This document shows, piece after piece, positions 3,570 through 63,077 of a stretch of DNA of 64,000 nucleotides (position 1 is its first letter; the number at the start of each line of letters is the position of its first letter). Made by a program: the position numbers and the translations under genes. The notes beneath the pieces were generated by a model, which saw only the letters and a program-made list of their open reading frames with translations, did not search any database and was not told where the DNA came from. This DNA comes from Sphaerolaimus hirsutus (taxonomy: Eukaryota > Nematoda > Chromadorea > Monhysterida > Sphaerolaimidae): positions 5,766,001 through 5,830,000 of the forward strand of contig OZ038454.1 in NCBI GenBank assembly GCA_964036195.1. The letters are read 5' to 3'.

Positions 3570-4555
3570 GCCATTACATAAAGAAGTGTCTGCTCCGGCG
3601 CCCCTAGTATTTGCATCCTATAAGTATCACTCAAAGCACCCAGTAGTTCAATATTTTCAGCTGTCAATCAGAGACACACATAGTCACATATGCCCTTTCC
3701 ATCTATGAGATATTTGCACGAGAAGAGCACTCTCACATTTACTGAGAAACACTTCGATAGAAAATTTCATCGCATGCACGCACACACGCACACACATGCA
3801 CAGCATGCTTCAAGAGGTTTGTCATGATCATTCAAGGAATCAAAAAATCAAAATAATTTCCAAAATTCTGAATTTTTTTTGACTCTTGATATTTTAGACA
3901 CTTTAAATCTATTTTTTCATAGAAAATGTCTATACTTTTGCAATTTTTTCCAGGGATTTCAAGCCCACAAATTTTAACATGTCAAATCAATTGACAAGTG
4001 ATATTTATTGCATCTGTGGCATAAAAATGTAGAAATGGCATCGAAAGGGGCCACGAAGGGCATCTGCACAGCATTGGTCTAATAATGTGTGTCTGTTGGA
4101 AGGCATTTTACAACAGGGACAGAGAAACACAGATCTCTGACAACTTGTTGCCTGCTTGCCTGACATGCTTAAAAAATAGTGGCAGCTCATGCAAATTCTG
4201 CTTTCCATTTTCCGGCATTTCATTTTTCCATTTTCCAGCAAGTACAAGAATTTTTCATTGCCATTTTCTGGCAAGTGCAAAATTTTCTAATTTCCATTTC
4301 AATTTTTTTCGACACCTCAGCCACAACTCATGTCGCCACCTATATTCCAGCACTCATCTGCCCCATTAGAGCTTCCCACAGCCTTAAGAGCCAAACATAG
4401 AGCTTATATTTTACTTGGGATTGGATTGGTTAAAGGGTGATGGCAAGCACAAGTTTGAAAACGTTTTTTTTAATTTATTTTATCAAAATTTTATAATTGA
4501 ATAATTTTTTCTTATTGTTGGCCCATTTTAGGTTCAACATTAGTTAGGTCTATCG
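3570..4555. other. Intergenic, nothing recognised
   Basis: AT-rich with a CACACA-rich patch near 3778-3800 and TTTTCCATTTTC-like low-complexity DNA at 4190-4310. No exon with homology or clear splice structure was found. Confidence 0.4.
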
Positions 4556-7362: not shown

Positions 7363-8550
7363 TTTTTATACGGTAGATGTGTGGGACGTGGGTGCACAAG
7401 CAAATTTCCTAAGTGCCCGAGGCTAAAACGTCATCAGACAATTTGAGCGAGCAACACAGCGATTTCAGAGAAGAAACAAAATGGACAAATTTCACGCGTA
7501 ATTGCTTAAATTTATTTACAACTTACACGGGTTTGTGCTTAGAAAATCAGTAGCATGCAAATGTGCTTATTGCCTGGTACAATTTGCAGTGTCTATGGCG
7601 CTACGCACAATGGATGTCAACTGGATTCCATGTCAATTCAGATTTTAGTTGACGAGTTGCAGGAAAAAAATTTCAACTCGAAAAATAAGGAAGCACTGCC
7701 GCTATCTTTAACCATTCTATCAAAATCAAACACCAAATGTCAACTGGTGCCGATCCCAATTCAAAGCTTGCTGACGAGCCGATGAATGACGTTCAAACGC
7801 AAGCTGGGAACAGAACCAATTGACATTTGGTGCCGATGTCAACTAGCGTGTGTGGGACCATTGTCACTTATCATGTCACATATAATAATTTCAGATATAC
7901 ATTTTCTGTACACGTATGCTTTTCAAAAGTACGCGCACAGGTGAGTACAGGTACTTTGTTTGAGTATATGTAAATGTATTTATCCAATACTCGAGTACCC
8001 TAAATCCTCGAACAAGACCCCAGGGGAGTTATTTTTTAAGTCCGAAGTTTTTGAGGGGGGAGTTATTCAGGGGGGAGTTATTCGAATGGGGGGGGAGTTA
8101 TTTTTTATGTTATTCAAAAAAGTATATCGCACATTTTTGTCTTCTAAGAGAGTTTTGCATCGTTTTCTGTTTTTTTTTATCAAAACAATTTTTCAAGGAT
8201 GTCGTTATGACGGAGTGCTTAGTTCAGAAAACTGTATAGCATGCAGTCAACGAAATATAGTGGGACTACGCAAAGTGTCCTATGCAAATGCACTATAAGG
8301 TGCCCGTATTTAGACATTCAGGCACCTAAGACAATTAAATATGTAGATTTTATTTTCACAACATGGACATTAACTTTCCCACGTTTAAGCAGGGCATTGA
8401 GTGAAAGCCTATGTCAAATGTAAATGTAAAACAGCGAGGTATTTTGAGATCGAGCGGGCGCTAGATGTGAGTGAAAATGCAGTGCGCACGCATCAATTAA
8501 CGTTTTTATATTTCCATACTATTTATTATGGCTGCTCACTTTGAGGTGGG
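7363..8550. other. Unit A-specific segment, repeat-derived
   Basis: This segment has no counterpart in unit B, where 23463-23574 is found instead. It contains a GTCAACTAGCGTGTGTGGG-type element (about 7590-7865) related to 39929-40125, and a degraded CCGTATT-type element at about 7990-8110. No gene is supported. Confidence 0.5.
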
Positions 8551-9114
8551 ATCTACCGTATCTCATGTGAATAAAGGACCATGTTTTTACAATTTTTTTC
8601 TCGTGAAATAAAATCATTTACAGTCTTCAACCGAATTGGGTGCACATTGGGGGAATTGGGTTCTTACTGTGATTTTGTTCTGCAAAATATGGTAGCATTC
8701 TTTGTAGAGCGCAGAGTCCGATCAGTATACTATTTTACATTTATTCAGGTACCTATTTAGGTGTTTATGTATGTATATCTCATAAGTTATAACGTTGACA
8801 TAACTGCACACTTCTGACAATGTGATGAAATGACATCACTATACACTACTACAAATTTCTCAATTTTTTTCCGTATAAGTTGAACGTATAAGTTGACACA
8901 GTGAGCTTGCACGGGCGCAAAACACAACTTAAATTCACTTTTTACATTAACAAACTTTACACTTTACAGGGCTCGCGACTGCCCTCTGCAGTGTTCTAGT
9001 TTTTTCCCCCACACAACATTCGTTAATTACAGATTTTCTACAACATACAAATTTCAACCCTAGAATATCTAATCATACAAACATATTTAGATAATTAATT
9101 AATTAATTTTCACA

Positions 9115-12100
9115 ATGTTCGGACAGAAAGACAGCACTACACCATCACCGTTATTGGGTCTCGATATAAAGATCGACATAAATGATGAGAGGAAAAATGA
9201 AATAACACTGAGTTGTACACTCCAGGTGCGTGAATTAAAGTGACTTCGAAAATATTTTTTAACGTAGCTTGCTTCAACCTAGCTTCACAAATGCTTCACG
9301 CGCTTCCAAAAATGTGTAAGACACTTCACGCTGCTTAGCGCTTCCACACGCTTCACCAACATAAGAACGCAGCGTCAGCGTCATATTAAAATGAGTGAAG
9401 TGTCTTCACGCAAATTTTAGTGAAGCGTCAGGAAGCGATGGTGTGCTGCGTGAAGCGTCGGGAAGCGTCAGCGTGAAGTACTTCACGACGCTTCACCGCG
9501 TATCCATACACCCATTTTTTGCTTTGAGCGTGTGTGGGGCCATTTGTGTGCACACACTGGCGAACCACCGCACGCTAAAAATTGGCGGTACGCATCCGAA
9601 TGTTTTTGAGTTATTTTATGCACGTGCTTACTCAAAGTTGGTTCGAAAGGTTTTAGTTAGGAAAACGAAGAAGAAAAAAAAGTGCACAATTTCATGCTGT
9701 TCTGACGTTTTAGATGGGATCTTGTCTTAGTTATGTCGTTGCAAAGAACGTTCGAAATCGTATTGACAAATTCCAGTGTTCAATTTAGCAAAAACGGATT
9801 TGTGAAACAAATCAATGCAAAACATTTTCAAAATAGAGCTAGAGCAGTGCAAAATGTGGCTTCCTGGTAGCTCAGTCGGTTAAAGCATTCACACGCATCG
9901 TGAAAGGTCCCGGGTTCAAGTACAGGCCAGTGTGAAAACATTTTGTACCTTTTCTACAGACTCTTTAAATATATAATTTATTCAAATTTCCAATTTATCC
10001 ATTTAGTTTCCAACATCCATTTCAGAGCATTTACACGTAAAAAATTATTTTTTTCAGGATTTTCCAAAGGGGTCGGACAATGGGGAATATTTCGCGCACA
10101 TTTTACCAGGAATCGTAATGGTTACTTGCGCACTTGCCGGCCTTCTAGTAAACACCTGGGCAGTGCATTTGATCAGAAACTTACACCTGGCTGAGGTAAG
10201 TTTTGGATACTTGGTGGTTTTTATAAAGTTTTAGGAGGATTTGGGGTGGCGATAATATGATTTTAAGTGGAAGGTGGAAATGGAAAAAAGTGTCCCTCCC
10301 TGGTGAAGATTTGTAAAGCTGTGTAAAAAATTCGCAGTTTGAAAATCCCACTTTTGCATGAAAGTTGAATTAACTAGTTGAAATTGGCAAAATGTATTTA
10401 AGTATTTACCGCAAAGCTTTTACTTGTATATTTTTATTTTACATGACATTTTGGTCATTTGAGAGTTTGTCCGGGGAGTTTGTTAAAATTTTCTCACTTT
10501 TTATGTTAAATAATGTTGTGTTAATTAATGTTAATAATAATTTATGATTAAAGTATTTCTTTAAAATATTTACGTTGCAGTGTCTCCGCTGCTATCTATG
10601 GTCATTATTAGCTTGGGACAGTTTACTTCTCCTCACTGCAGTCCTTTTACGCTGCGATGTAGTCATCGGCCAGGTGCCAATCCCAGACCCTGTAAAAAGC
10701 CCTGAAAAATGTCAAATGTCATGCAAAGTGTCAAAAGTCATGGAAAATGCCCTGCAAAATGGCAACCGTTGCATGACATTTGACATTTTTCAGGGCTTTT
10801 TACAGGGTCTGGGAGTGCTCCCAGTTGTTACATGACGTCTATTCCAGAGACGTTCTCATCACGCTGGCGTGAGTGTTTACAAAAAAAAATTTTTTAAATT
10901 TTTTTCTAAAACATTTTATTGAAAAAACAGGAGGCATGTTTACGCACCAGCTGGGGCAACGTCAGTGGGAAGTTGCTGGACGCAATGTTTGATTGCGCTG
11001 GCTTGTTACATGGCTGTGTCGAGACCGCTGCACGCTAGATCGAGTTTGTTGAATGGGGGGGGGGGGGTAAAAGACCGTTTTTTCAAAACAAAGTACCGTA
11101 TTAAAAAAAATGTTTTTCAAAAATATGGAAATCTTAAAAAAATATTATTTAAAAACGTGAATTTGAAAGTGTGAATGTGAGCAATCAACAAAAATTAACA
11201 TCAATATTTGCATTTTCCAAATTTTGAGTATATTCGGCGGACCGCAAAGTATGCGCCCATATATATTTATGCCTTGGTCAATAACGGGAGAGCTGGATAC
11301 TTATGTATGCACTTACACAAAAAAATATTGAAAAAAAAGAAAAAGGCGGAGTCAGGTACAAACGAGGAATGTTTTTTCCGTCATGTTTTTTCGTTTTTTT
11401 TTGCTGGAATTATTTTAATTTTATTAATGATGACGTCATGATGGAGTGTTTCCTTCAGAAAAATGCATAGCATGCGGTCCGTCGAGTATACTTTATTGGT
11501 TCATTTGACTTTTACCGAGAAACCCCCCCCCCTCCCACAAAAACAGCGTTTTCCAACAAAAAACACACAAAAATTTGCAGACTGGCTGCACACGCAACCC
11601 TGCATAGGTATATTACTTGTAGCAGTATCGACAATGATCTATTGCGCTCCATATTTCTACGAATTGGAAATAATTCCATGCAAGAGGGTGGGAAGTTTGG
11701 AACTTGGCGCGGAATTGATTGCGACAAAATTGAGAATGAATAAATGGTATCAGGTGAGAGAAGAGTGCGTATTTTGGGGGTGGGAAGCATAAATAGTTGA
11801 TAAAACGTATTATACGTATAGGTAATGAGTAATGAGTAATCAGTAATGTGTAAATACGTTGACGTTTCCTCCGTAAAAAGTACATGTATTTACCAGGGGT
11901 TTTGTAGATTTGGACCCTCGCGGGGGTTCATATAGATAGCAAATCGCTCCTCCGGAGGGATAGATAGCTGAAAAAAATTTGGGGGGGGGAGGTTGGGGGG
12001 GGGGGGTCGCGGGGGTTCAAAATATAGGTATAGAAGTGAGGAAAAGGAGAAAAAAACGCTAAAAGTAGTGAAAAATGGCTAACAATGGGTATATAAGGAC

Positions 12101-15100
12101 ATTAAGGCAGTTAGACGCATGAACTAGTGATTTTTGAAATTAAAATGTATATAAAGGTATGAAAAATAGCGATTTTGAGCGAAAATTGGGGTAAAGTTTC
12201 TCAAAAATCGCTCCAGATAGGTAGATAGCTGGCCGATCTGGGGGGGGGGGTTTAGGGTATATTAACCCAAAATTTTGGATGATTCGTATTGGATGATGAC
12301 ACTTGGAAAATTTTCCAGATATTTGAAACATTCACACAATTCGGCAGTGGTAACAGGGGACTTGTATAGAATTTAGGCATCAATCTAAAAATCGTGCTCC
12401 AAATTATCGACCAAATATTCTTTTCATTATACAACTAGTGGTGTAAAAAGCGCCAGGACTTTGGCGCCAAGCGCCAAAAGCGCCATGCGCTTTTCCGACC
12501 CCCAGCGCCAAGCGCCAATGGCGCCATAGCAAAATAGCGCCATGGCGCTTTTCATGGGGATGACGCCAAGCGCCACAGCAAGTTAGCGCCATGGCGCTTT
12601 TTGCTTTGGCGCTAGCGCCAGGCGTCAGCGCCATGGCGCTTTTACATCACTAATTACAACCCTTTTCACAGCTGTTTTATCGCGTGATCGGCCATATAAC
12701 AGTGGTAAATGGAGGGCCACTAATATTGATAACATACACTGCTGCGAGAATGGCCTGTATTATGCGACAATCACCTGCATCCGTGAGTTGTTGAACTAAT
12801 AGCTCAGGTGCCAGTCCCAGACCCTGTAAAATGTAAAATATAATGCAAAGCGTGTAAAGTCATGGAAAATGCCCAGCAAAATGGCAACCGAGTCGCCATT
12901 TTGCAGGGCATTTTCCACGACTTTTGGCACTTTGCATGACATTTGACATTTTACAGGGCTTTTTACAGGGTCTGGGAGTGCCCCCAGATACTTATTTGAA
13001 AAATATTGACAAACATATTAGGCCCTAGAATAGTGTTACCCGGAAAAAGTCAGATGAAAATTAATTGCTGAGATAAATTATTTGAGCAAATACTGTAGTA
13101 CAGAAATACCTATACATTTTCCTACGAAAGCACCATGCCTGTGAACAGCGCAATCGGTAGCTTTTAAAATGCATTTATCCGGTTAAAATTATGCACAAGC
13201 AAATGCACGTAAATACAGTCAGTCCAATAAAACAATTTCTAAAAAAACCCTATTTGTATTCGATTCAGAATCAAGAAGGTCCAGTGAGTACGGCGGCATC
13301 GAGACAAAGCCACGTCGCGATACAGGTAAATACGATATTTAAATAGAGTTGTCTGTTAGGGTTCAAACGGGACCAGTTTTTCGGACCGGGACCGGAACTA
13401 GGGTTGGCCGATGTTTTTTTTAAAACGTTTTTTTTTTTAAAACGACGTTTTTTATATAAAAAAACATGACGTCCGAAATGTTTTTTTTTTAAAAAAAACA
13501 TCGACCAAAATTTTTAGTACTAAGCACTAGGTATTTTGCAAAATTTTTGCGCGCAAGCGCGCAATTTTACACACAAATTGACATTGGTGGTTGTTTTCAT
13601 TGGTTTTGTGGCATTTTTAGTATCAAAGTATCCATTTATATATGCTACCATGGGTTAATAAGCCGTCATATGTCGGTGTAGCATATAATATTGAGGTAAT
13701 GTGCTTCCATGTACCTCCACAGTGTGTAACTTCACTCCCAAAGTAACAACCTCCTTTTATAACCTTGTTTGATCACTATTCCGTGCCAAACTTTACCTGA
13801 AGTCACAAACATTCGACTATAAGGCGATATACGAACGTATCAACAAAGAAATGGATATTTTTGACACAAATCACCACTTATAATGCTATCCCATGGCTCA
13901 ACAGCCATTATATGGTCATATATAACATCACAGAGTATTGCCATTGTCTGATATACATATATATGTTGACACAAGGTCGTATCTGGGAGCTTTTAAAAAA
14001 AACAACGTTTTTTATTTAAAAAACGTTTTTTTATATAAAACATAGAGTTAAAAAAACGTTTTTTTCCAACCCTAACCGGTAACGGAACTTTTCTATCGGT
14101 ACCTGGACCAGGTCCGGAATTTATTTTTCTCGGGACCGCCCCCCCCCAGTCCGGAAAATTTTCCGAACCATGTACCGAAACCGTGGTCCCGTTTGCACCC
14201 TATTCAATTCACTAATCACACCAGGGTGCACTCCCAGACCCTGTAAAAAGCCCCGTAAAATGTCAACCGTCATGCAAAGTATCAAAAGTTATGGAAAATA
14301 CCCTGCAAAATGGCAACCGAGTTTCCATGACTTTTGACACTTTGCATGACATTTTACATTTTACAGGGTCTGGGTGTGGCACCAAATGTCACAAACAAAA
14401 AAAGTGAGACCCCAAACCCTCTGCAGATATGCATTAAATACGTGATTTGCCATTCGCTGCCATTGGTGCTGAACATAATCGAATTGGTGGATGCGGGCAA
14501 CAGGAATTATTTTGGCTTGGGGCCAAATTTTATGATGGCAATGGCAGACGTGAGCAACCTGGGCGTGGTGGTGCACAGCGCCACAAATCCTATAGTATAT
14601 TACAGGTGAATTTTGATGGTAAATATTTTGTATGGGTGCACACACACACACTAGTTGACGTCGCAATTCGTGTCAACTGCGTGTCAACTAAATAACCCAA
14701 TTTGTTTAAAGCATCACACATAACAGAAACAATGAAAATTAAGGTCATTGTAAAGTGCCGGCTAATATAATTGAGCTTTTGATGACATATGGATTCCATC
14801 AATTGTATCTCACTCCCCAAGCACAGTTGGGCCATGTGGTCTGGTGTGGAGTTGCCCCCAGGTGTTTACTACATCCACCCCTGGGGGGACCCTTGTGGCT
14901 GCTCTGATGTAGCTACAGGGGCATGTCCCGTAAAAATTATCAAATTTTCATCTGGCCATTATAAATGAGCTTTTTTAAAATTTGGTTGAAATAGGCATTT
15001 TTATATTGTAAAACCAGTGGAAAAGCTCACAGGTGGTGGAAAACAATCACTCAAAAAGAGAACCAACCCGTTTTTTGTACCACAGGGTCCAGGTTCTCTG

Positions 15101-16484
15101 ACAAGCCATAAAAGACTACCTGAACAAATCCCTCTGACATGCAGAAATCATCCCTTTTCATGACTGGTGCTAGGTGAAACCTTTATGATGGGGGGTTGCC
15201 TTTGGGTGACATATACACCTTGATGTGGTGCATCTTTTATCACCCTCCCCCCTCCCTGAACCCCCCTCAAAAAAGTTGTGGTTGAACAAAGGAACAAACT
15301 TTTTTCATCTGGAATCTCATTTTGGTTTTGTGTTCACCTGGCCCCAGACACATCTGGTACACTGTCTGTCATGGCCTCCCCATGCTCACTACTTGCCAGA
15401 CAAAAATTTCCAATGGTCTGGAGCCAGCACAATCATATTTTTGGGGCTAGGTGAACACAATCCCAAAATGAAATTTCAAGATGAAAAAAGTTTGCTCATT
15501 TGTGCAACCACAACTTTTTCTGAGGGGGGTTCAGGGTGGGGGAAGGGGTGATAAAAGATGCACCACATCAAAGTGTATATGTCACCCAAAGGCAACCCCC
15601 CATATAAAGGTTTCACTTAGCACCAGTCATGAAAAGGAATGATTTCTGCATGTCAAAGGGATTCGTTCAGGTAGTCTTTTATGGCTTGTCAGAGAACCTG
15701 GACCCTGTGGTACAAAAAAAGGGTTGTTTCTCTTTTTGAGTGATTGTTTTCCACCACCTGTGAGCTTTTTCCACTTGTTTAATAATATTAAAATGCCTAT
15801 TTCAACCAAATTTTAAAAAAGCTCATTTATAATGGCCAGATGAAAATTTGATAATTTTTACGGGACATGCCCCTGTGGCTACATCAGGGCAGCCACAGGG
15901 GTCCCCCCAGGGGTGGATGTAGTAAACACCTGGGGGCAACTCCACACCAGACCACTTGGCCCAACTGTGCTTGGGGAGTGAGATATAATTGATGGAATCA
16001 AGATGTCATCAAAAGCTCAATTATATTAGCCGGCTCTTTATAAAATAAACCATGCCATATTACCTAGGAAAGGTGAAATCACGTAATTAACCAAAATTTA
16101 GTTGATTTTGATGTCAACGAGTGTGTGGGGGTCCAATGTCACAAAGATCTGATTAAAGGACTCTATTCATCTTTTTTCAGAGCAAGACGCAGCAGACAGT
16201 TGGCAGAAAATGCAGTTAATGAATCAAAAAATTGTGCCCCAGTAAAAGAAACTTCTACACGGTTGCTGACAACGGGAGTTCCAAAGGTGTCATTTATTTT
16301 TGGCGCAATTGCAAACATGCACAAATTTCCAAAGTTGATGAGTTTGTTTAAAACGCATTTGGGTTTACCAGAATGTTTAGTCCGTCAATTGCTGTTGACA
16401 GATATAAGACATGATCCATTCTGGTCAACTCAGTTTTTAAAACAGAGTTATACTCGGCAGACACGATACTCTACAAACAGATAG
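9115..16484 (+). CDS. Rhodopsin-family G protein-coupled receptor, copy A
   Basis: Ten exons join in frame to 440 codons: 9115-9225, 10058-10195, 10581-10673, 10825-10868, 10931-11043, 11581-11753, 12672-12782, 13269-13325, 14427-14605, 16181-16484. Seven membrane segments are visible. TM1 has the GLLVN asparagine, TM2 LAWDSLLLL has the conserved Asp, and TM7 ends in NPIVYY (NPxxY). TM6 reads CHSLPLVLNIIEL, resembling invertebrate FMRFamide/myosuppressin-type neuropeptide receptors. This identity is inferred from motifs only; the ligand is unknown. The motif after TM3 is ACYMAVSRPL instead of (D/E)RYxAVxxPL. Intron 3 is entirely an introner-like element (10674-10824). The exon 5 donor is taken as GTTTGT, because it is the one whose phase fits exon 6; a poly-G tract follows it. 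Compared with copy B nearly all coding differences are synonymous, so both copies look functional. Confidence 0.88.
9239..9510. repeat. Array of CTTCACGC/GCGTGAAG motifs
   Basis: Receptor intron 1 holds many copies of CTTCACGC, AGCGCTTC and GAAGCGTC in both orientations, and the same array is present in unit B (25340-25560). It is built like the interiors of the hAT-like MITEs, but I could not fix its ends. Confidence 0.5.
9861..9933 (+). tRNA. tRNA-like sequence (possible tRNA-Cys pseudogene or SINE head)
   Basis: Within receptor intron 1. An A-box-like TAGCTCAGTCGG and a B-box-like GGTTCAAGTAC are 30-odd bases apart. The anticodon stem TTCAC/GTGAA pairs perfectly around a 7-base loop, ACGCATC, giving anticodon GCA (Cys). 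Acceptor ends TTCCTGG/CCAGTGT pair over five bases. Position 33 is C instead of U and the T stem pairs poorly, so it is probably not a working tRNA gene. Also present at 25924-25996. Confidence 0.45.
10674..10824 (+). mobile_element. Introner: palindromic element forming receptor intron 3
   Basis: The intron starts GTGCCAATCCCAGACCCTGT immediately after the exon sequence ATCGGCCAG and ends GGTCTGGGAGTGCTCCCAG immediately before TTGTTACATGAC. The two halves are near-perfect reverse complements around GGCAACCGTTGC. Removing exactly this 151-bp stretch joins codons ...VIGQ and LLHDVYSRDV... in frame (phase 0). The element therefore supplies both donor and acceptor. Related elements lie at 12808, 14225 and 57512 and in unit B. 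Confidence 0.9.
11893..12262. repeat. GGGGTTTTGTAGATTTGGAC / GATAGATAGCTG repeat
   Basis: It starts CAGGGGTTTTGTAGATTTGG, then CGCGGGGGTTCATATAGATA, two poly-G tracts and the motif GATAGATAGCTGGC. The same set of motifs occurs in unit B (27950-29560), at 41290-41515, 43310-44070, 53340-54065 and 60690-61530. It is a dispersed repeat with G-rich interior. Confidence 0.6.
12436..12652. mobile_element. hAT-like MITE with GCGCCA arrays
   Basis: Termini TAGTGGTGTAAAAAGCGCC and GGCGCTTTTACATCACTA. The interior is an array of GCGCCAAGCGCCAAAAGCGC. Flanks TATACAAC and ATTACAAC are an imperfect 8-bp target duplication. It is shared with unit B (29725-29941), so it predates the duplication. Confidence 0.75.
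12808..12987 (+). mobile_element. Introner-like element inside receptor intron 7
   Basis: Left end GTGCCAGTCCCAGACCCTG follows CAG; the right end is GGTCTGGGAGTGCCCCCAG. It is 180 bp and near palindromic, centred on ACCGAGTCG. It lies within a larger intron that already has its own donor at 12783, so here it does not define the intron. Shared with unit B (30094-30273). Confidence 0.8.
13357..14202. mobile_element. hAT-like MITE with GGACCGG motifs, interrupted
   Basis: Ends TAGGGTTCAAACGGGACC and GGTCCCGTTTGCACCCTA. The arms carry GGACCGGGACCGGAAC repeats. A second element (13399-14074) is inserted in it. In unit B the uninterrupted version is 31057-31219. Confidence 0.8.
13399..14074. mobile_element. 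Nested hAT-like MITE with AAAACGTTTT arms and GCGCGCAAGCGCGCA core
   Basis: Ends TAGGGTTGGCCGATG and TTTTTTCCAACCCTA. The subterminal arms are poly-A/poly-T with ACGT. The core contains GCGCGCAAGCGCGCA at about 13549 followed by CACACAAATTGACATTGGTG. It is absent from the matching element of unit B, so it was inserted or lost after the duplication. A near copy with an exact target duplication is at 49852-50472. Confidence 0.8.
14225..14383 (-). mobile_element. Introner-like element, reverse orientation
   Basis: GGTGCACTCCCAGACCCTG starts the element and GGTCTGGGTGTGGCACC ends it, with a palindrome centre at ACCGAGTTTCC. The donor-type end (GGTGCC) is on the right, so it lies antisense to the receptor within intron 8. 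Shared with unit B (31242-31412). Confidence 0.75.
14753..16038. mobile_element. Large foldback element with long inverted-repeat arms
   Basis: Ends AAGTGCCGGCTAATATAATT and its complement finishing GCCGGCTCTT, flanked by TA on both sides. The two arms are near-complementary over most of their ~600 bp (for example GCTACATCAGGGCAGCCACA at 15878 against its complement near 14897). Unit B has the empty site at about 31770 (CATTGTATAAAATAAACC). No transposase was seen. TA duplication suggests a Tc1/mariner-type process. Confidence 0.85.
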
Positions 16485-16778
16485 GAGTTATGTCTTCGGC
16501 TGGCAGACGGCCAGCCAATAACTTATGGAAGACGTCATGAAGACGACGGATGGCGAGAGATGATGATCGGGATGAAAGTGATCATGTCATGATGGAGTGT
16601 CTCCTCTGGAAAAATGTACGGTGTAATATCATCCGAGTATACCAGCTTTGGAAATTTCGACTGTTAACCAGTAAGTTATTACACCAATTTGTAAAAAATT
16701 TCGCAGACAACTCTCACTGCCAGCCAGCGTCAGGCACATCTAAATTGTGGAAATTCCCCCCAATCCACAAAATTTACC

Positions 16779-19700
16779 ATGAGAAAAAGTGTATGTGAAA
16801 GGAAATTAACAAAAAGTGAAAAAATCGCTTTGAGAACTGTTCGGAACGAGTGTGGCCTTACCAATGAAAAAATTGGCATGGCTGTACTCACTGCAATAAT
16901 AGAGGTGAAGCCAAGCTTAAAAAACAGATTTGTAATTGGTGATAGCTTGGAAAATTGGAGAGAATGTGACCAAGTAAAACAGTTGGTGAGAACATTGCAT
17001 TTATTAAAAATTCATATTCAAATTTCAATTTATTTTTTATTTGAGACCGACTTATTAGACATGCATGATGTGCTTATTGATTGTAGAAATAGAATAAGTA
17101 GTAATTTCTTGCATGACAAAGGACATAACTATGTTTGGATATTTACATGTGTTGTATTTTCAATTTTGTTCTGATTTATACCTACCTACATATTGGTGGA
17201 ATGTAAATGGATGGGTTACAGTGTGTAGGTATTTTAGCAATGGATACCACAGTACAGTAGTAGTCAAACAGATCATTAAAATCTCGCTCAATCGAGTGTT
17301 TCTGACGAAAATCACTCAGCCACAGTCTGGGCACTGTCAACCTGAGCCTGATCCCCAGCTGCCCCGTCTTCTCCGCGAAGAAAGTAGCCATTGTCACATC
17401 CAAGATCGGTCAGCTCACCAAGATTGTCAGCTTGCTGGGCGCACACGTCGATACAGGGCGCCGAGTGCTCTCTTATAGCGTCAAAGCACTTATCGTGGTC
17501 GGCCGAGTGGACATTCACAGAGCCTGGGAAGTGCCATGTGAAGTGGCAAATGTCATGTGAAGTGGCAAATGTCATGCAAAATGGTGAATGTCATGCGGAT
17601 GCGAAGTGACGAAATTCATGTAAAATGTCAAAACTCATGTAAACTCCCGATTCAAAGCTTGCTGACGAGCCGACGAACGACGTTCAAACGCAAGCTTTGA
17701 ATTGGGAATGAAACCAGTTGACATTTGGTGTCGATGTCAACTAGCGTGTGTGGGGCCAATAAGTAGCGATGGAAAAGCGCCAGAGAAAATGTGTGTATTT
17801 CACACTGCACATGTGAGATTCATCTTCGGAGATGTCAAATTCACCTCCGGGCATGTGAGATTTCACGTTATGTGAAAGTAGACATCTTAGAATGGCCCCT
17901 ATTTTCAAACAATTGTTTAAAAAACAAGGCCACCGCTAAGTCGGACAATATTACCTAGATATTACATTCCATGTTCATATACATTGTAGATAGCATTTTC
18001 CACTTTTCATATCAGACATGGAACGCGCACAATATCACAAAGGTGCTTATTAAGCGGTTGCCGGCGGGATTACAGTAACCGTTTCACAGCGTTCCACGTT
18101 GTAATTGGACATTTGCCAAAAAAATCAATACTCCCATTGGCATGTTCTGAAACAGAGTGACCAACCATCCAGCGTGTCAGTATGATTGTCACAAAATTAG
18201 GGCTCAAATGGGATCGACTTTTCAGGATCGGGATCAGGATGACCCTGTGCCTGTGGCCATGTAAACTCGCTAGACATGTAGACCCGCCAGTAATGTATTT
18301 CAGGGGGAATTAGCACAGTACACGGGTTAGCGGCAGAGGGTTTACATGATTAGTAGAGTAAACTATTTACATAGCACAGGCTGCACTGCGTGTGCACTAA
18401 CATTGTTTTGTAACTCTTTGGATGATACTGTTCGAAGAAACGTAAAAAAATCATAAATCAGTTGCAGCGCACTTGAGTTTTCAATTGCTCTTGCAGTTCA
18501 AGTGTACATGCATGCAGACCACGCAGAACAATGCTTACCATGTCGAGAAAAACACGATAAAATGATAATAAATTGAAAATGACTATGAATTTCACAAAAT
18601 TCACAATCCCTCACATTCAAACATAATTACACAAAAATTCCCAAAATTTGCAGTCAAAAACAGTTGGAAACTACCTGCACAACTATTTAATGATGCACAC
18701 GTCAGAAACAGAACAAGAAACTGAGAATTATGCAAAAATGATCATAACTCCCGCAGAACTTTCAGCTAGACATTTTGACTTGGGCATCAATTTGAGCAAC
18801 AGGGAATGGCTTGCATTCAGAGCGACCATGGAAAAACTTCTGGGGACCGTTCCAGAAATACGCGGACAGTCGACGGAATGTGAGCTTTTCAAAATTTTAA
18901 ATTTTTTTGTTCACGAATAAGCCTAAAAATTGTTGTAAAGGTGCCAAAGATATTAACATACCGTATTACTTCGAAATACCCCCATTGGGTGTCTACAATT
19001 TCGCCAGCGACATTTGAGGGGGGTTAATTATGGGGGGATATTATTTCGTCAGAAATTTTCGTAAGGATCGTAGTAAATAGTAGGCATTTGCGTACCCAAA
19101 ACAGGTAATAAGTGTGTCCAAGCAGGATATATTTGGACATAAAAATGTAGATAGATACTGCAAACTTGCAGTAATAAATACATCATGTACATCGCATGAT
19201 TCCGGAGGGGTGGTAGGATTCAAACGGGATCCCGATCCCGAAACCTCAATCCCGATCCCGATCCCTGAAATTTGAAAAAGCCAATCCCGATCCCGAGACT
19301 TTAAAAATCCCGATCCCGATCCCGGAAAAATTCACAACCACAAAAGGTGCACTTTTAAATGACCATTTTGTATGCAGTTTGCAAAAATTTTGCGCGCAAG
19401 CGCGCATTTCCGCACCTACCTCTATATATCTGTTCCATGGGCATGGACACCACTACAAATGTACTCGATACAGTGCCCATTACCATAGTTTAAGATTAAT
19501 ACACATGCAAATTTGGTAGACAGTGGTGTGAATGACAATGCCAGGCAGCCCATTGCGCAGTGCCTAAATGAAGCTATAGCATTGTTTTGGATGCCAATTT
19601 AATCCAACGTTTCTGGCATCCATTGTTTTTGGTGTTTTGGGTCATTTTGTGAAATGTCAGGAAAAACCCTGACAACCAATTTTTTGGGGCCTAAATCCCG

Positions 19701-20234
19701 ATCCTGAAAAAAAGACAATCCCGATCCCGAAAGGTCAATCCCGATCCCGAAATTTCAAAAAGACAATCCCGATCCCGATCCCGAAAGGCCAATCCCGATC
19801 CCGAAATCTCAAAAAACCAATCCCGATCCCGATCCCGAAAAGTCAATCCCGTTTGAACCCTAAGGGGGGGGGGTATTATTTCCCCAGCCCAATTTGAGGG
19901 GGGTTATCTCGAGGAGGAAGTTAATTCAAAGGGGGGGTGATAATTCGAGGTAATACGGTATGAGATTTTCATGAAACGCAATTTAACAAAAATTACATGC
20001 TCAATTATTATTGGCACGCTTCCAACGTGTGACATAAATAATTGCCAGTGCAGAGTATCAAATCCGCCCAGGTTACCAACAAAACATACGTAACAAATAA
20101 TCTTTCGCACAGCCGCCGCAAATGGCCCAGAAAGAAGCATCGCATCAGAAAATACCAGACAGGCGCTGGTCACGTTTCTGACCCAATTCATTTGGCAAGC
20201 GAAAAAAGGATTCTTAGAGTACGCGTCGAATTGA
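16779..20234 (+). CDS. Globin, copy A
   Basis: Three exons (16779-16985, 18654-18879, 20113-20234) give 184 codons, phases 0 then 1. The N-terminal helix reads LTKSEKIALRTVRNECGL. A Gln in VKQLSK sits at the distal E7 position and the His of SARHFDLGI is the likely proximal F8 haem ligand. The C-terminal helix is ALVTFLTQFIWQAKKGF. The layout resembles invertebrate (nematode-type) globins that use Gln at E7; role in oxygen binding or sensing is inferred. The start is the first in-frame Met and a further upstream exon cannot be excluded. It begins 295 bp after the receptor stop on the same strand. AATAAA signals follow the stop at about 20330-20360. Intron 1 contains a conserved antisense exon. 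Confidence 0.85.
17312..17523 (-). CDS. Conserved antisense 3'-terminal exon of unknown protein, copy A
   Basis: This minus-strand open frame starts after the acceptor-like CACTTCCCAG and ends at TGA. It encodes about 70 residues with four cysteines (CFDAI, PCIDVC, LGCDNG) and an acidic, Gly/Ala-rich tail. I do not recognise the family. Compared with the unit B copy (33497-33702), about seven of eight substitutions before the tail are synonymous in this frame, while the same changes alter many residues in the plus frame. This argues for real minus-strand coding. The C-terminus differs: TVAE here, AG in copy B, because of a small indel. Upstream exons were not found. The exon lies inside globin intron 1. 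Confidence 0.55.
17524..17765. repeat. Repeat mosaic in globin intron 1
   Basis: GTGAAGTGGCAAATGTCATG units (17536-17650) resemble introner arms. They are followed by a GTTGACATTTGGTGTCGATG ... CTAGCGTGTGTGGGGCC terminus of the family seen complete at 39929-40125. Conserved in unit B. Confidence 0.5.
18961..19958. mobile_element. TA-flanked CCGTATT MITE carrying a nested GATCCCG element
   Basis: Termini CCGTATTACTTCGAAATACC and TTCGAGGTAATACGG, both next to TA. The nested element 19214-19862 has ends TAGGATTCAAACGGGATC and CCCGTTTGAACCCTA, flanks AGGGGTGG/AGGGGGGG (near 8-bp duplication) and an interior of GATCCCGATCCCG repeats plus GCGCGCAAGCGCGCA at 19391. Located in globin intron 2; no counterpart in unit B. 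Confidence 0.75.
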
Positions 20235-22839: not shown

Positions 22840-22923
22840 CTGGGGGGGGGGGGTGGGGGGGGGGGGGGTAACAGAGGAAAGGAAAATGATTACCAATGAT
22901 TGGAAAATGGTAGTGCAGGTCAG

Positions 22924-25198: not shown

Positions 25199-28100
25199 AT
25201 GTTCGGACAGAAAGACAGCACTACACCATCCCCGTTATTGGGTCTCGATATAAAGATCGACATAAATGATGAGAGGAAAAATGAAATAACACTGAGTTGT
25301 ACACTCCAGGTGCGTGATTTAAAGTGACTTTGAAAATATTTTTTAAACGTAGCTTGCTTAAACCTAGCTTCACAAATGCTTCACGCGCTTCCAAAAATGT
25401 GTAAGACACTTCACGCTGCTTAGCGCTTCCACACGCTTCACCAACATAAGAAGGCAGCGTCAGCAGCGTCAGATTAAAATGCGTGAAGTGTCTTCACGCA
25501 AATTTTAGTGAAGCGTCGGGAATAGTCAGCGTGAAAACACTTCACAACGCTTCACCGCGCATCCATACACCAATTTTTTGCTTTGAGCGTGTGTGGGGCC
25601 ATTTGTGTGCACACACTGAAGAAACACCGCACGCTAAAAATTGGCGGTACGCATTCGAATGTTTTTGAGTGATTTTATGCACGTGCTTACTAAAAGTTAG
25701 TTCGAAAGGTTTTAGTTAGGAAAACGAAGATGAAAAGAAAAAGGTGCACAATTTCACGCTGTTCTGACGTTTTTAGATGGGATCTTGTCTTAGTTATGGC
25801 GTTGCAAAGAACGTTCGAAATCGTATTGACAAATTCCAGTGTTCAATTTAGCAAAAACGGATTTGTGAAACAAATCAATGCAAAACATTTTCAAAATAGA
25901 GCTAGAGCAGTGCAAAATGTGGCTTCCTGGTAGCTCAGTCGGTTAAAGCATTCACACGCATCGTGAAAGGTCCCGGGTTCAGGTACAGGCCAGGGTGAAA
26001 ACATTTTGTACCTTTTCTACAGACTCTTTAAACATATAATTTCTCCAAATTTCCAATTTATCCATTTACTTTCCAACATCCATTTCAGAGCATTTACACG
26101 TAAAAAATTATATTTTTCAGGATTTCCCAAAGGGGTCTGACAATGGGGAATATTTCGCGCACATTTTACCAGGAATCTTAATGGTTACTTGCGCACTTGC
26201 CGGCCTTCTAGTAAACACCTGGGCGGTGCATTTGATTAGAAACTTACACCTGGCTGAGGTAAGTTTTGGATACATGGTGGTTTTGATAAAGTTTTAGGTG
26301 GATTTGGGGTGGAGATAATATGATCTTAAGTGGAAGGTGGAAATGGAGAAAGGGCCCCTCCCTGGTGAAGATTTGTAAAGCTGTGTAAAAAATTCGCAGT
26401 TTCAAAATCCCACTTTTGCATGAAAAAGGGGCCACGCACGGTTGAATTAACTAGTTGAAATTAGTAAAATGTAAGTATTTACCGCAAAGCTTTTACTTGT
26501 ATTTTTTTATTTTACATGACATTTTGGTCATTTGAAAGTTTGTCCGGGGAGTTTGTTAAAATTTTCTCACTTTTTATGTTAAATATGTTGTGTTAATTGA
26601 TGTTAAAAAATAATAATTTATGTTTTAAAGTATTTTTTTAAAATACGTTGCAGTGTCTCCGCTGCTATCTATGGTCATTATTAGCTTGGGACAGTTTACT
26701 TCTCCTCACTGCAGTCCTTTTACGCTGTGATGTAGTCATCGGCCAGGTGCCAATCCCAGACCCTGTAAAAAGGCCTGAAAAATGTCAAATGTCATTCAAA
26801 GTGTCAAAAGTCATGGAAAATGTCCTGCAAAATGGCAACCGTTGCATGACATTTGCATTTTTCAGGGCTTTTTACAGGGTCTGGGAGTGCTCCCAGTTGT
26901 TACATGACGTCTATTCCAGAGACGTTCTCATCACGCTGGCGTGAGTGTTTACAAAAAAAGTTTAAAAAAATTTTTTCTAAAAAAACATTTTTTTGAAAAA
27001 AAACAGGAGGCACGTTTACGCACCAGCTGGGGCAACGTCAGTGGGAAGTTGCTGGACGCAATGTTTGATTGCGCTGGCTTGTTACATGGCTGTGTCGAGA
27101 CCGCTGCACGCTAGATCGAGTTTGTTGAATGGGGGGGGGGGGGGGGTAAAAGACTTTTTTCAAAACAAAGTACCGTATTGAAAAAAATGTTTTTCAAAAA
27201 TATGGAAATCTTAAAAAAATATTATTTAAAAAAGTGAATGTGAGAAATCAACAAAAATTAACATCAATATTTGCATTTTCCAAATTTTAAGTATATTCGG
27301 CGGACCGCAAAGTATGCGCCCATATTTATTTATGTCTTGGTCAATAACGCGAGAGCTGGATGTATGCACTTATGTATGCACTTTCACAAAAAATAAAATA
27401 TTGAAAAAAGAAAAAGGCGGAGTCAGGTACAAACGAGGAATGTTTTTTCCGTCATGTTTTTTTTCGTTTTTTTTTTTGCTGGAATTATTCAAATTTTATT
27501 AATGATGACGTCATGATGGAGATGCGGTCCGTCGAGTATACTTTATTGGTTCATTTGACTTTTACCGAGAAACCCCCCCCCCTCCCACAAAAACAGCGTT
27601 TTCCAACAAAAAACACACACAAATTTACAGACTGGCTGCACACGCAACCCTGCATAGGTATATTACTTGTAGCAGTATCGACAATGATCTATTGCGCTCC
27701 ATATTTCTACGAATTGGAAATAATTCCATGCAAGAGGGTGGGAAGTTTGGAACTTGGCGCGGAATTGATCGCGACAAAATTGAGAATGAATAAATGGTAT
27801 CAGGTGAGAGAAGAGTGCGTACTTTGGGGGTGGGAAGCATAAATAGTTGATAAAAACGTATTATACATATAAATAGGTAATGAGTAATGAGTAATCAGTA
27901 ATCTGTAAATACGTTGACGTTTCCTCCGTAAAAAGTACATGTATTTACCAGGGGTTTTGTAGATTTGGACCCTCGCGGGGGTTCATATAGATAGCAAATC
28001 GCTCCTCCGGAGGGATAGATAGCTGAAAAAAATTTTGGGGGGGGGGTTTGGGGGGGGTCGCGGGGGTTCAAAATATAGGTATAGAAGTGAGGAAAAGGAG

Positions 28101-31100
28101 AAAAATGGCTAAAAGTAGGTGAAAAATGGCTAAAAATGGGTATATAAGGACATATAGTACTAAAAATAGCTGAAAATAGGCAGTTAGACGCAGGGACGTA
28201 TCCAGGATTTTTGAGCGGGGGGGGCTGCTTGTTTACGGAGGCCGGCGAGGGGGGGGGGGCTCAGCCCCCCCCCCTAAAATTTTAGCTACATAGTGGCGGA
28301 ATGGCGCCATGGCGCTGGCGCCATTAGTAGGCGCCACGCCATCGCGCCATTGGCGTTGGCGTCAGCGCCATGGAATGCTGTATATGTATGTAAATATACA
28401 TACAAAACAGCAAAAAAACACAACATTGAGTGTATTTATAATGATTTGTGGCCACATGGAGCAAATCCAATGACAATACCTTATGTCTGGTGAAGAATGC
28501 GCGCTTGCGCGCAAAATTTTTTACGCTGACGTTGAAAAAGTCGCATTTTCCGGTCACTTTTTGGAGGTCGCCCCGGGAGGGGGGGGGGGGGCTGCAGCCC
28601 CCCCGCCCCCTAGGGTGGCAGACGGTACGGGCTTGCGGTAAACCGTACGGTACGGTAAATTTTCCATTTTGCAGTAAACGGTATGGTACGGTAAATCTTC
28701 AATTTTGCGGTAAACGGTACGGTACGGTAAATCTGAAAAGTGCGGTACGCGGTACGGTACAGTACGGTACGGTAAATTTCCGATGTCAGAAATGTATCAA
28801 TGCGGGGCTACAGACAACCTTTAATTCATAAATTGAAACCAAATTCAATTTCACAATCTAATAAATGGCCTTAAGAACACAACAAAAGTATGATGACAAA
28901 AAAAATTACATTACCCATAATGTAGGACCATATTCAAGGTGTAGAAGGAAGAAATGGAGAAAAAATTGCCAAGTGGGAGAAAAATTGCTAAAAGTAGGTG
29001 AAAACAGTTGAAAATGAGTATATATAATTACACATAAACACATAAAGTAAATACATTGAGTCTAATGTTTCATACTTTAAGAGTATCTAGGAAAACAATG
29101 TTGTGAAATTTGCGCGCTTGCGCGCAAAAAAAATTTCAGAACACCACATTAATTATCATCAATAAAGAGCCATATTTAAGGATAATCTTAGTAAAATTTA
29201 CCGCATTTTCTGCGGTAAATGAGTGCGGTACGCGGTACGGTACGGTAAATTTTGGAAAATGCGGTACGCGGTACGGTACGGTAAATTTCTAAAAGTGCGG
29301 TAAACGGTACGGTACAGTACGGTAAATTTCCCAAAAATGCGGTACGGTACGGTAAATTCTGCCACCCTACCGCCCCCCCCCCCCCTGGATACGGCCCTGG
29401 TTAGACGCATGAACTAGTGATTTTGGAGGTTAAAATGTATATAAAGGTATGAAAAATAGCGATTTTGAGCGAAAATTGGGGTATAGTTTCTCAAAAATCG
29501 CTCCAGATAGGTAGATAGCTGGCCGATTTGGGGGGGGGGTTTAGGGTATATTAGCCCAAAATTTTGGATGATTCGTATTGGATGATGACACTTGGAAAAT
29601 TTTCCAGATATTTTAAACATTCACACAATTCGGCAGTGGTAACAGGGGACTTGTATAGAATTTAGGCATCAATCTAAAGATCGTGCTCCAAATTATCGAC
29701 CAAATATTCTTTTCATTGTACAACTAGTGGTGTAAAAAGCGCCAGGACTTTGGCGCCAAGCGCCAAAAGCGCCATGCGCTTTTCCGACCCCCAGCGCCAA
29801 GCGCCAATGGCGCCATAGCAAAATAGCGCCATGGCGCTTTTCATGGGGATGACGCCAAGCGCCACAGCAAGTTAGCGCCATGGCGCTTTTTGCTTTGGCG
29901 CTAGCGCCAGGCGTCAGCGCCATGGCACTTTTACATCACTAATTACAACCCTTTTCACAGCTGTTTTATCGCGTGATCGGCCATATAACAGTGGTAAATG
30001 GAGGGCCACTAATATTGATAACATACACTGCTGCGAGAATGGCCTGTATTATGCGACAATCACCTGCATCAGTGAGTTGTTGAACTAGCTCAGGTGCCAG
30101 TCCCAGACCCTGTAAAATGTAAAATATAATGCAAAGCGTGTAAAGTCATGGAAAATGCCCAGCAAAATGGCAACCGAGTCGCCATTTTGCAGGGCATTTT
30201 CCACGACCTTTGGCACTTTGCATGACATTTGACATTTTACAGGGTTTTTTACAGGGTCTGGGAGTGCCCCCAGATACTTATTTGAAAAATATTGACAAAC
30301 ATATTAGGCCCTAGAATAGTGTTACCCGTAAAAAGTCAGATGAAAATTAATTGCTGAGATAAATTATTTGAGCAAATACTGTAGTACAGAAATACCTATA
30401 CATTTTCCTACGAAAGCACCATGCCTGTGAACAGCGCAATCGGTAGCTTTTATCCGGCTAAAATTATGCACAAGCAAATGCACGTAAATACAGTCAGTCC
30501 AATAAAACAATTTCTAAAAAAACCTATTTGCATTCGATTCAGAATCAAGAAGGTCCAGTGAGTACGGCGGCATCGAGACAAAGCCACGTCGCGATACAGG
30601 TAAATACGATATTTAAATAGAGTTGTCTGTTAAGCCGGAATTACAGCTCAGCGGCGTTTGACGTGAAATGATGACGACGTAAAATTGATTACATCAAAAT
30701 AGACATAGGTACAGCCTTGAAATTTCAGAATTTGATAGTTCTAGTAATTGTGTGTAATGTCCTAAAAAAATTACTAAAATAATTATTATGTAATAAGTTA
30801 TTTATTTTTCGTCAAAATTTACACATTCTACGTCAACATTTCACGTCAAACATTTTACGTCACCAAAAAATTTTGACGTTAAATTAATAACTACTTAAAT
30901 AATGATTATTTGATAAATTTTTTTGGGACATTACACACAATTACTTGAACTATCTAATTCTGAAATTTCAATGCTGTACCTTTGTCTATTTTGATGTAAT
31001 CAATTTTACGATGTCATCATTTCACGTCAAACGCCGCTGAGCTGTAATTCCGGCTTAAGGGTTCAAACGGGACCAGTTATTCGGACCGGGACCGGGACCG

Positions 31101-32215
31101 GAACTTTTCTATCGGGACCTGGACCAGGTCCGGAATTTATTTTTCTCGGGACCGGGCCCCCCCAGTCCGGAAAATTTTTCCGAACCATGTACCGAAACCG
31201 TGGTCCAGTTTGAACCCTATTCAATTAACTAATCACACCAAGGTGCACTCCCAGACCCTGTAAAAAGCCCCGTAAAATGTCAACCGTCATGCAAAGTATC
31301 AAAAGTTATGGAAAATACCCTGCAAAATGGCAACCGAGTTTCCATGACTTTTGACACTTTGCATGACATTTTACATTTTACAGGGCCTTTTACAGGGTCT
31401 GGGTGTGGCACCAAATGTCACAAACAAAAAAGTGAGACCCCAAACCCTCTGCAGATATGCATCAAATACGTAATTTGCCATTCGCTGCCATTGGTGCTGA
31501 ACATAATCGAATTGGTGGATGCGGGCAACAGGAATTATTTTGGCTTGGGGCCAAATTTTATGATGGCAATGGCAGACGTGAGCAACCTGGGCGTGGTGGT
31601 GCACAGCGCCACAAATCCTATAGTATATTACAGGTGAATTTTGATGGTAAATATATGGGCGCACACACACACTAGTTGACATCGCAATTCGTGTCAACTG
31701 CATGTCAACTAAATAACCCAATTTGTTTAAAGCATCACACATGACAGAAACAATGAAAATTAAGGTCATTGTATAAAATAAACCATGCCATATTACCTAG
31801 GAAAGGTGAAATCACGTAATTAACCAAAATTTAGTTGATCTTGATGTCAACGAGTGTGGGTGTCCAATGTCACAAAGATTTGATTGAAAGACTCTATTCA
31901 TCTTTTCCCAGAGCTAGACGCAGCAGACAGTTGGCAGAAAATGCAGTTAATGAATCAAAAAATTGCGCCCCAGTAAAAGAAACTTCTACACGGTTGCTGA
32001 CAACGGGAGTTCCAAAGGTGTCATTTATTTTTGGCGCAATTGCAAACATGCACAAATTTCCAAAGTTGATGAGTTTGTTTAAAACGCATTTGGGTTTACC
32101 AGAATGTTTAGTCCGTCAATTGCTGTTGACAGATATAAGACATGATCCATTCTGGTCAACTCAGTTTTTAAAACAGAGTTATACTCGGCAGACACGATAC
32201 TCTACAAACAGATAG
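25199..32215 (+). CDS. Rhodopsin-family G protein-coupled receptor, copy B
   Basis: Ten exons of the same lengths and phases as copy A: 25199-25309, 26121-26258, 26654-26746, 26897-26940, 27007-27119, 27631-27803, 29961-30071, 30543-30599, 31455-31633, 31912-32215 (440 codons). Motifs are as in copy A, including ACYMAVSRPL after TM3 and NPIVYY in TM7. I count one amino-acid change (Val to Leu in TM1) against about ten synonymous ones, so purifying selection has acted on at least one and probably both copies. Intron 3 is again an introner. Intron 6 has grown by a 1.2-kb nested MITE (28191-29399), and intron 8 by a TTAA element. The C-terminal 100 residues have no motif I recognise. Confidence 0.88.
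25924..25996 (+). tRNA. tRNA-like sequence, copy B
   Basis: Paralogue of 9861-9933. Same A box, perfect TTCAC/GTGAA anticodon stem and GCA anticodon with C at position 33. The B box is GGTTCAGGTAC. Probably a tRNA-derived remnant. Confidence 0.4.
26747..26896 (+). mobile_element. Introner forming receptor intron 3, copy B
   Basis: Paralogue of 10674-10824. It starts GTGCCAATCCCAGACCCTG directly after ATCGGCCAG and ends GGGAGTGCTCCCAG directly before TTGTTACATGAC. It is 150 bp; the palindrome is slightly less perfect than in copy A. This copy happens to be open in the receptor frame, so intron retention would not stop translation. Confidence 0.88.
28191..29399. mobile_element. hAT-like MITE with CAGGGACGTATCCAGG ends, carrying a nested element
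   Basis: Ends CAGGGACGTATCCAGGATTT and CCTGGATACGGCCCTG, with exact 8-bp target duplication GTTAGACG (28183-28190, 29400-29407). Unit A has the empty site at about 12110-12125. It includes GCGCCA motifs, GCGCGCTTGCGCGCA at 28499, and a second element at 28611-29369. Confidence 0.92.
28611..29369. mobile_element. Nested hAT-like MITE with GGTACGGTAA arrays
   Basis: Ends TAGGGTGGCAGACGGTACGG and AATTCTGCCACCCTA, with exact 8-bp duplication CCGCCCCC (28603-28610, 29370-29377). Both arms are arrays of CGGTACGGTAAATT. The core has GCGCGCTTGCGCGCA at about 29115. Confidence 0.9.
29725..29941. mobile_element. hAT-like MITE with GCGCCA arrays, copy B
   Basis: Paralogue of 12436-12652 at the same position of receptor intron 6, with the same termini and array. 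Confidence 0.75.
30094..30273 (+). mobile_element. Introner-like element in receptor intron 7, copy B
   Basis: Paralogue of 12808-12987: GTGCCAGTCCCAGACC at the left, GGGAGTGCCCCCAG at the right, 180 bp. Confidence 0.8.
30634..31054. mobile_element. TTAA-flanked MITE (piggyBac-like target)
   Basis: Ends GCCGGAATTACAGCTCAGCG and CGCTGAGCTGTAATTCCGGC, flanked by TTAA at 30630-30633 and 31055-31058. It is an inverted repeat with ACGTCAAA-rich arms. Unit A lacks it (13350-13360). TTAA target use is characteristic of piggyBac-type transposition. Non-coding. Confidence 0.85.
31057..31219. mobile_element. hAT-like MITE with GGACCGG motifs, copy B
   Basis: The uninterrupted counterpart of 13357-14202: AGGGTTCAAACGGGACC at the left and TTTGAACCCTA at the right, with GGACCGGGACC repeats. 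Its left end abuts the TTAA element. Confidence 0.75.
31242..31412 (-). mobile_element. Introner-like element, reverse orientation, copy B
   Basis: Paralogue of 14225-14383 in receptor intron 8, ends GGTGCACTCCCAGACCC and GGTCTGGGTGTGGCACC. Confidence 0.75.
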
Positions 32216-62638: not shown

Positions 62639-63077
62639 AGGGGGCAGTCCCAAGCCCTGTAAAGTGTAAAGTAAAGTGTCAAATGTAAAGTAAAGTGTCA
62701 AGTCAAATGTCAAATGTAAAGTCAAGTGTCAAATGTAAAGTCAAGTGTCAAGTCAAATGTCAAATGTAAAGTAAAGTGTCAATTGTGTATCCAAATCGAT
62801 TTTTTTTGTATCCAAATCTTATGTTTTTGTATCCAAATCTTGTTTTTCGAAATAAGATTTGGATACAAAAACATAAGATTTGGATACGAAAAATAAGATT
62901 TGGATACACAATTGACACTTTACTTTACATTTGACTTGACACTTGACTTTACGTTTGACACTTTACTTTACATTTGACATTTGACTTGACACTTGACTTT
63001 ACATTTGACATTTGACTTGACACTTTACTTTACATTTGACACTTTACTTTACACTTTACAGGGCTTGGGATTGGCAC
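62639..63077 (-). mobile_element. Introner-like element, TGTAAAGTAAAGTG type
   Basis: On the minus strand it starts GTGCCAATCCCAAGCCCTG and ends GGGCTTGGGACTGCCCCCTG, with G replacing the expected A of the acceptor region. The arms consist of AAGTGTCAAATGTAAAGT repeats. The centre is TTTGGATACAAAAACATAAG and complement. It lies 25 bp from the previous element. Confidence 0.65.

Follow-up and report, generated by a model that had tools for sequence, protein, structure and literature searches.

Is the foldback, transposon-like element that separates two exons of a receptor-like gene in the nematode Sphaerolaimus hirsutus exactly one intron, and has the same element made introns elsewhere in the genome? 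The origin of new introns is an old question, and animal introners have been reported from few groups. The available part of Gozashti et al. (2022; PMC9860276), on introners that have terminal inverted repeats and make target duplications, reports introners from just two groups among animals and land plants, both of them animals. The locus was analyzed in a window of 64,000 nt (the whole stretch of DNA under study; G000:C6:5766001-5830000), and further copies were sought across the genome (348 Mb). The element is very probably an introner, as argued here from sequence and protein homology.

The Window Copy and Its Reading Frame

The element lies between two exons of a gene that was recognized by eye as a receptor from its NPIVYY motif and TM-like exons. 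By inspection, an acceptor (...TTGCAG) precedes the upstream exon. The coordinates of the element, its exons, and the other family members in the window are listed in Table 1.

Table 1. Features of the receptor locus and family members in the window.
Feature	Position	Strand	Remarks
Upstream coding exon, receptor-like gene	10581..10673	+	Ends ...IGQ; open frame; GPCR identity by eye
Left target-site duplication CAG	10671..10673	+	Final three exon bases, retained in exon
Very probable introner, foldback MITE, 148 bp	10674..10821	+	Left end GTGCCAATCCCAGACCCTGTAAAAAG, right end (inward) GGAGCACTCCCAGACCCTG
Right target-site duplication CAG	10822..10824	+	Would give the AG of the putative 3' splice site
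Downstream coding exon, starts LLHDVYSRDVLITLA	10825..10868	+	Join in frame; then GTGAGT donor (by inspection)
Second family member, CAG duplication	12808..12984	+	Within ordinary intron of same receptor gene, not whole intron (by inspection)
Family member opposite to gene	14225..14382	-	+ strand flanks CAG left, CAA right; just upstream of TM6-TM7 exon (by eye)
Same putative intron in tandem-duplicated receptor	26747..26893	+	Element 144/147 aligned positions identical, 1 gap
Duplicate of 12808 copy	30094..30270	+	
Duplicate of 14225 copy	31242..31411	-	CAA both sides
Related subfamily, TTCCAAGCCC ends, duplication CAA	35644..35804	+	Read by eye
Related longer foldback copy, CCCAAGCCC subfamily	62641..63077	-	Duplication CTG/CTG in element orientation

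The outer 17 bases of the element are GTGCCAATCCCAGACCC at the left end and, read inward, GGAGCACTCCCAGACCC at the right end. The arms of the inverted repeat, described as near-perfect in the original prediction, are indeed 98% complementary over 49 nt (10678-10726 and 10769-10817). The in-frame join claimed after excision was also recovered: removal of 10674-10824 (151 nt, 1 mod 3) gives ...DVVIGQ/LLHDVYSRD..., the slash marking the junction, and retention shifts the frame and then leads to a stop. The element had been described as exactly one intron, with GT as its first and AG as its last bases. The interval 10674-10824 does join codons, and GT (at 10674) and AG (10823-10824) are present; the element proper ends at 10821, and the AG belongs to the target-site duplication, not to the element. 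Since the final CAG is the right target-site duplication, the terminal CAG of the putative intron would be duplicated exon sequence. Splicing of the window copy may also use one of two in-frame alternatives: an inner donor, seen by inspection, which would add 18 nt, or an AG that lies 9 nt before the end.

The RNA of 10660-10840 folds at -104.3 kcal/mol, compared with -44.7 (sd 4.37) for 200 shuffles (z = -13.64), and a chance palindrome was rejected on this value. An old intron that was invaded later was also rejected: the exons directly abut the duplications.

Searches with the window receptor returned little. It had no Pfam match, its best match against PDB was an unrelated protein at only E = 0.013, and a genome search for an intronless paralogue matched only the receptor itself and its tandem duplicate. 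Scanning the window for Rfam families and tRNAs gave 0 hits.

Owing to a tandem duplication (units at about 8545-23000 and 23570-39400; start-to-start ~16 kb; pieces about 92-97% identical), the window holds two sets of the receptor gene with its elements. The copy in the duplicated receptor was rejected as an independent insertion; it is the same insertion, copied by the ~16-kb duplication. Not every family member is an intron, as the copy at 12808 demonstrates. By inspection, ordinary introns in the window appear to follow GT-AG. Intron sequence holds many long runs of G and GC-rich micro-repeats (11040-11080, 11940-12010, and others, by eye). A tRNA-like stretch at 9857-9930 (GGTAGCTCAGTCGGTTAAAGC...GGGTTCAA) was seen by eye and was not called by ARAGORN; it is perhaps a SINE remnant. 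The window also contains an N run within the ORF at 22706-23200, which shows up as X in translated ORFs.

Family Size, Ends, and Target-Site Duplications

A similarity search with the window copy gave at least 95 matches (the best 40 of 789 candidates were scored). A 24-base left-end pattern with one base free matched the genome 2,588 times, 1,303 and 1,285 times on the two strands, and the reversed-pattern control matched 0 times. The 16-base right end matched 4,389 times.

Fifty copies, found with the window copy or its inner repeat as query, were curated by hand from 81 rows. Both-strand repeats, segmental or near duplicates, and partial copies were left out, and some ends were adjusted by hand. 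The duplicates left out were the window copies at 26747, 30094, and 31242, and L001, L002, L009, L011, and L020. For C1, 51 copies were paired; 50 of these (23 of the 24 CAG/CAG copies among them) and two CTG/CAG pairs beyond the common range made up a set of 52. Copies are partly non-independent (L064 and L065 are paralogues, as are L084 and L085).

The left end read GTG in 47 of the 50 curated copies. The right end read GGG in 37 and GGA in seven, and both ends were GTG in two. The asymmetry of the outermost bases that had been claimed for the window copy (GTGCCA against a GGGGCA-type end, read inward) therefore recurs through the family.

Flanking triplets were equal in 29 of the 50 curated copies and in 10 of 200 shifted comparisons. 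The pairs included CAG/CAG (13 copies), CTG/CTG (13 copies), and CTG/CAG (seven copies). Altogether, 26 copies were CAG/CAG or CTG/CTG, and nine more had CWG at both ends. Genome-wide, left ends were preceded by CAG in 2,183 cases and CTG in 1,900; right ends were followed by CAG in 1,874 cases, CTG in 1,295 (together 3,169 of 4,389), and other triplets in 1,220.

Probable Exact Introns in Conserved Genes

The original prediction had proposed to count copies lying exactly at exon-exon junctions; such copies were found in independent genes for which solved or curated homologues exist. With the element and one duplication removed, the nicotinic receptor, which holds two copies, aligned gap-free over 102 residues with the solved alpha-7. 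After the same removal gap-free alignments with solved homologues were obtained for the cytoplasmic dynein heavy chain (93 residues), CNOT9 (90 residues), and Na,K-ATPase (78 residues). The BCKDHA alignment crossed the junction and had a one-residue gap well downstream. Element ends coincided with putative exon ends in unrelated genes, the exon boundaries being drawn from protein homology.

Junction-spanning Pfam matches above the curated cut-off were found for three of the 20 sense peptides in the first set (C2, C2H2 zinc finger, and Srx) and 11 of the 40 in the C1 set (CHGN, Abhydro_lipase, AMP-binding, Oscp1 twice, Srx, Xan_ur_permease, E1_dh, Rcd1, Calpain_III, and LRR_6). The remaining 46 of 60 sense peptides had no such match, nor did any of the 20 antisense peptides. 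The contrast of 14/60 with 0/20 gave a Fisher p of 0.016, the 20 first-set sense peptides having been chosen by eye and the antisense ones mostly for long open runs; for C1 alone, 11/40 against 0/10 gave p = 0.09. The C1 Pfam set comprised 40 of 52 peptides (L057, L065, L074, L077, L085, L086, L089-L092, L094, and L095 were left out). Its frames were the longest ones except for L056, L068, L072, and L076, for which the second-longest was picked by eye.

The codon score was higher in the sense orientation for 35 of 51 C1 copies and in antisense for 14, with two ties (p = 0.004); by class, the difference was significant for CAG/CAG only. This small codon model is too weak to classify single copies or to count coding copies: a score of at least 3 was reached by eight of 101 copies in sense and by two in antisense, and several homology-verified genes were missed. 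Stop-free runs (sense:antisense) stood at 5:5 for CTG/CAG, 11:7 for CTG/CTG, and 14:7 for CAG/CAG. ORF length alone thus gave a mixed outcome as a test of the coding strand.

Judged from sequence, the family has the defining features of introners: element ends at exon boundaries, a restored protein, and, at one site, an intron absent from paralogues. At that site, the receptor position occupied in L064 and L065 is unbroken in two paralogues (C2:19409625-19409864 and C6:12055138-12055377; 51% and 46% identical), each reading 240 nt over 80 codons with no stop.

Some genes hold more than one copy, each at its own position. Two introners were seen in the nicotinic receptor (L031), probably two in a C2-domain gene (L004), and two of different classes in OSCP1 (L056, L076). 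The element of L092 may lie in antisense next to a GDT1-like gene (the match, at E = 0.0038, falls below the cut-off and does not span the junction).

The CTG Class and Its Apparent Shift Towards CAG

The most interesting part lies outside the original finding. Many insertions sit at CTG and terminate either in TG or in what was probably a TG before it became AG; the original prediction had not foreseen them, and an apparent drift towards CAG accompanies them. Seamless removal at CTG sites requires a GT...TG intron. CTG/CTG copies occurred in at least seven conserved genes: the nicotinic receptor (at the second junction), CNOT9, BCKDHA, OSCP1, an SLC23-type permease, an Srx-type receptor (in two paralogues, L064/L065), and a calpain-like gene. 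One GPCR copy was flanked by ATG/ATG. A terminal AG was present in CAG/CAG and CTG/CAG copies, the window copy included, and absent in CTG/CTG copies. For the 18 CTG/CTG copies of the C1 set, none of the equivalent removal windows ended in AG, and GT..TG was the sole one starting with GT.

Mixed pairs were skewed. CTG/CAG outnumbered CAG/CTG by 8:1 in C1 and 7:2 in the first set (pooled 15:3, p = 0.0075), and the genome-wide share of CAG was higher at the right end than at the left (59.1% vs. 53.5%; Fisher p = 1.5e-6). We infer that the CAG excess at the right end reflects selection for a proper acceptor after CTG insertion. The change needed is the replacement of T by A at the penultimate base of the intron, which would turn TG into AG and appears as a drift from CTG towards CAG. 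With similar copies numbering in the thousands, and a fair proportion of the sampled ones lying in conserved genes, the order of events can be read: CWG insertion, a splice-competent end from the element, and then a putative single substitution that turns the acceptor TG into AG.

TG would be produced about half the time because the CWG target gives CTG about half the time. The chances are roughly even that TG then serves as the sole usable 3' end about as readily as AG, with the hairpin hiding the nearby AG and keeping the ends together, the spliceosome accepting TG, and selection later changing TG to AG.

Hairpin Folding and Proposed Mechanism

Pairing was compared among the 52 C1 copies. 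The inner AG (TTTTACAG, 19 nt upstream of the end; motif in 43 of the 52) had a median unpaired probability of 0.000. The median was 0.50 for the terminal AG or TG and 0.50 for the donor. Two points were counted against the introner reading: judged by the usual consensus, GTGCCA makes a weak donor, and TTTTACAG is a better-looking acceptor than the terminal end, with use of it shifting the frame by 19 nt.

The element is proposed to be a non-autonomous transposon with terminal inverted repeats, of the Harbinger-like (PHIS) type, which would insert mostly at CWG and duplicate these three bases. The left end has GT (GTGCCA) where the right keeps GGG, so that a correctly oriented element would carry a 5' splice site with it, and the 3' end of the intron would come from the duplicated target. 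RNA would then be spliced at the element ends. A CAG target would give exon-CAG/GTGCCA...CCCCAG/exon, a GT-AG intron whose removal would restore the old coding sequence exactly. A CTG target would give GT...TG, with TG the presumed acceptor; copies of this kind are still present in conserved genes, and others would since have changed T to A at the intron end. The hairpin may have a role in splice-site choice, as the folding model suggests. It may bury the strong, frame-shifting inner acceptor and place the true ends side by side and partly open, with the mismatched outermost bases keeping them open. The inner AG at 19 nt would satisfy the human distance rule of at most 28 nt even if it is not joined.

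Alternative Explanations

An ordinary MITE inside existing introns, with ends that match splice sites by chance, would account for those copies that lie within ordinary introns or have no evident coding flanks (12808-12984 and, by eye, several of the 52 C1 copies). It is a very improbable account of the family: in several independent conserved genes, whose exons join gap-free, the intron consists of nothing but the element and one duplication, with exon codons abutting both sides, paralogues at one site are intronless, and the end asymmetry and the right-end CAG excess are unexplained by a chance MITE. Removal might instead take place in somatic DNA rather than RNA, by a programmed elimination like that of ciliate IESs. 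Exact DNA removal that leaves one target copy would give the same proteins with no need of an AG, and it would explain the CTG/CTG copies in conserved genes without a new splicing rule. DNA excision is strand-indifferent, yet the Pfam matches fell in the GT-first orientation; nor would it raise CAG at one end only, and the asymmetric GT end would be purposeless. Somatic elimination is thus highly unlikely, and for the CTG/CTG class it is only weakened, the strand bias of that class alone being 11:5 by codon score (p = 0.21).

The introner reading may also be right for the family while the CTG/CTG copies are not GT-TG introns, being either recent insertions that still do harm or introns that use an AG farther upstream and so add residues. 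This is a live possibility, falling somewhat short of an even chance. In the available part of a study of human TG 3' splice sites (PMC2374985), these sites occur in U2 introns with an AG within 28 nt, as alternatives to that nearby AG and never as sole acceptors. An in-frame AG lies within 80 nt upstream in 11 of the 18 C1 CTG/CTG copies (at 9 nt in three copies and at 45-72 nt in most of the rest). In the nicotinic-receptor CTG/CTG copy such an AG, at 18 nt, would lengthen the protein by six residues, and the CAG excess itself suggests that TG is not ideal. Against this stand the CTG/CTG copies in conserved genes, the 1,295 right ends that are still CTG, and the removal windows, of which GT..TG alone begins with GT. 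CNOT9 has just two AGs in the 80 nt upstream, at 19 and 31 nt, and each of them shifts the frame; residues added from an upstream AG would break the gap-free alignments.

Comparison with Known Introners and Non-canonical Introns

As far as the available part of Gozashti et al. goes (PMC9860276), the introners described there resemble the present family in three respects: they are non-autonomous DNA transposons that make introns on insertion; one splice site lies in the element and the other is co-opted from the duplication (the example in their Figure 2C is without inverted repeats); and protein length is unchanged in most families. The present family differs in its 3-bp CWG target, which would yield both GT-AG and GT-TG classes, with signs of later change from TG to AG. 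No introner family with a mixed GT-AG/GT-TG outcome was found in a search of introner literature outside subscription, as far as the sources were available.

In the tunicate Fritillaria, 95% of introns are non-GT/AG, and introners with weak splice sites are named as a possible source of splice-site divergence (PMC13326754, available part). The likeness is that of an animal genome in which many introns break the GT-AG rule. The difference is that here the deviation occurs only at the 3' end, in the CTG class, and the ordinary introns of the window look GT-AG.

Like the human TG sites in the available part of PMC2374985, the introner copies usually have an AG upstream, at 19 nt; unlike at those sites, use of this AG would put the message out of frame, and the folding model predicts that the hairpin buries it. 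If TG is the sole acceptor, it would break the rule stated for human U2 introns and would offer natural material on how a hairpin selects a 3' splice site. A single genome would then display, as ongoing processes, the gain of introns, their non-canonical splicing, and their maturation.

Transposon Affiliation

The introner probably derives from a CWG-targeting, Harbinger-like (NuwaI-type) transposon. In the available part of PMC4482050, the NuwaI group of PHIS (Harbinger-related) transposons, present only in animals in the surveyed set, makes 5'-CWG-3' duplications and has repeats that usually begin with GGG. The introner shares the CWG duplications. Its right end reads GGG in 37 of the 50 curated copies, whereas its left end, GTG in 47, differs at the second base, a change that makes GT.

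Genes with DDE_Tnp_4 are abundant (at least 163 genome matches). A mobilizing transposase with introner ends was not found in the two DDE_Tnp_4 kinds examined among these matches: the first kind has a right end that differs from the introner's, and the second merely contains a related foldback copy.

One Harbinger-type transposon with DDE_Tnp_4 (L097 1-3605, L099, and L100) showed 99% identity over 3.6 kb among these three copies. It is abundant, many of the at least 163 matches being near-identical in score. Its right end lies near ...GCGCGGGGCC, and several TGA occur in the transposase stretch, perhaps an intron. In L098 a related foldback copy (3578-3775; CCAAAGCCC subfamily) stands directly before an exon, open by inspection, that belongs to a different Harbinger-like transposase gene; the arrangement looks like the invasion of a transposon by an introner.
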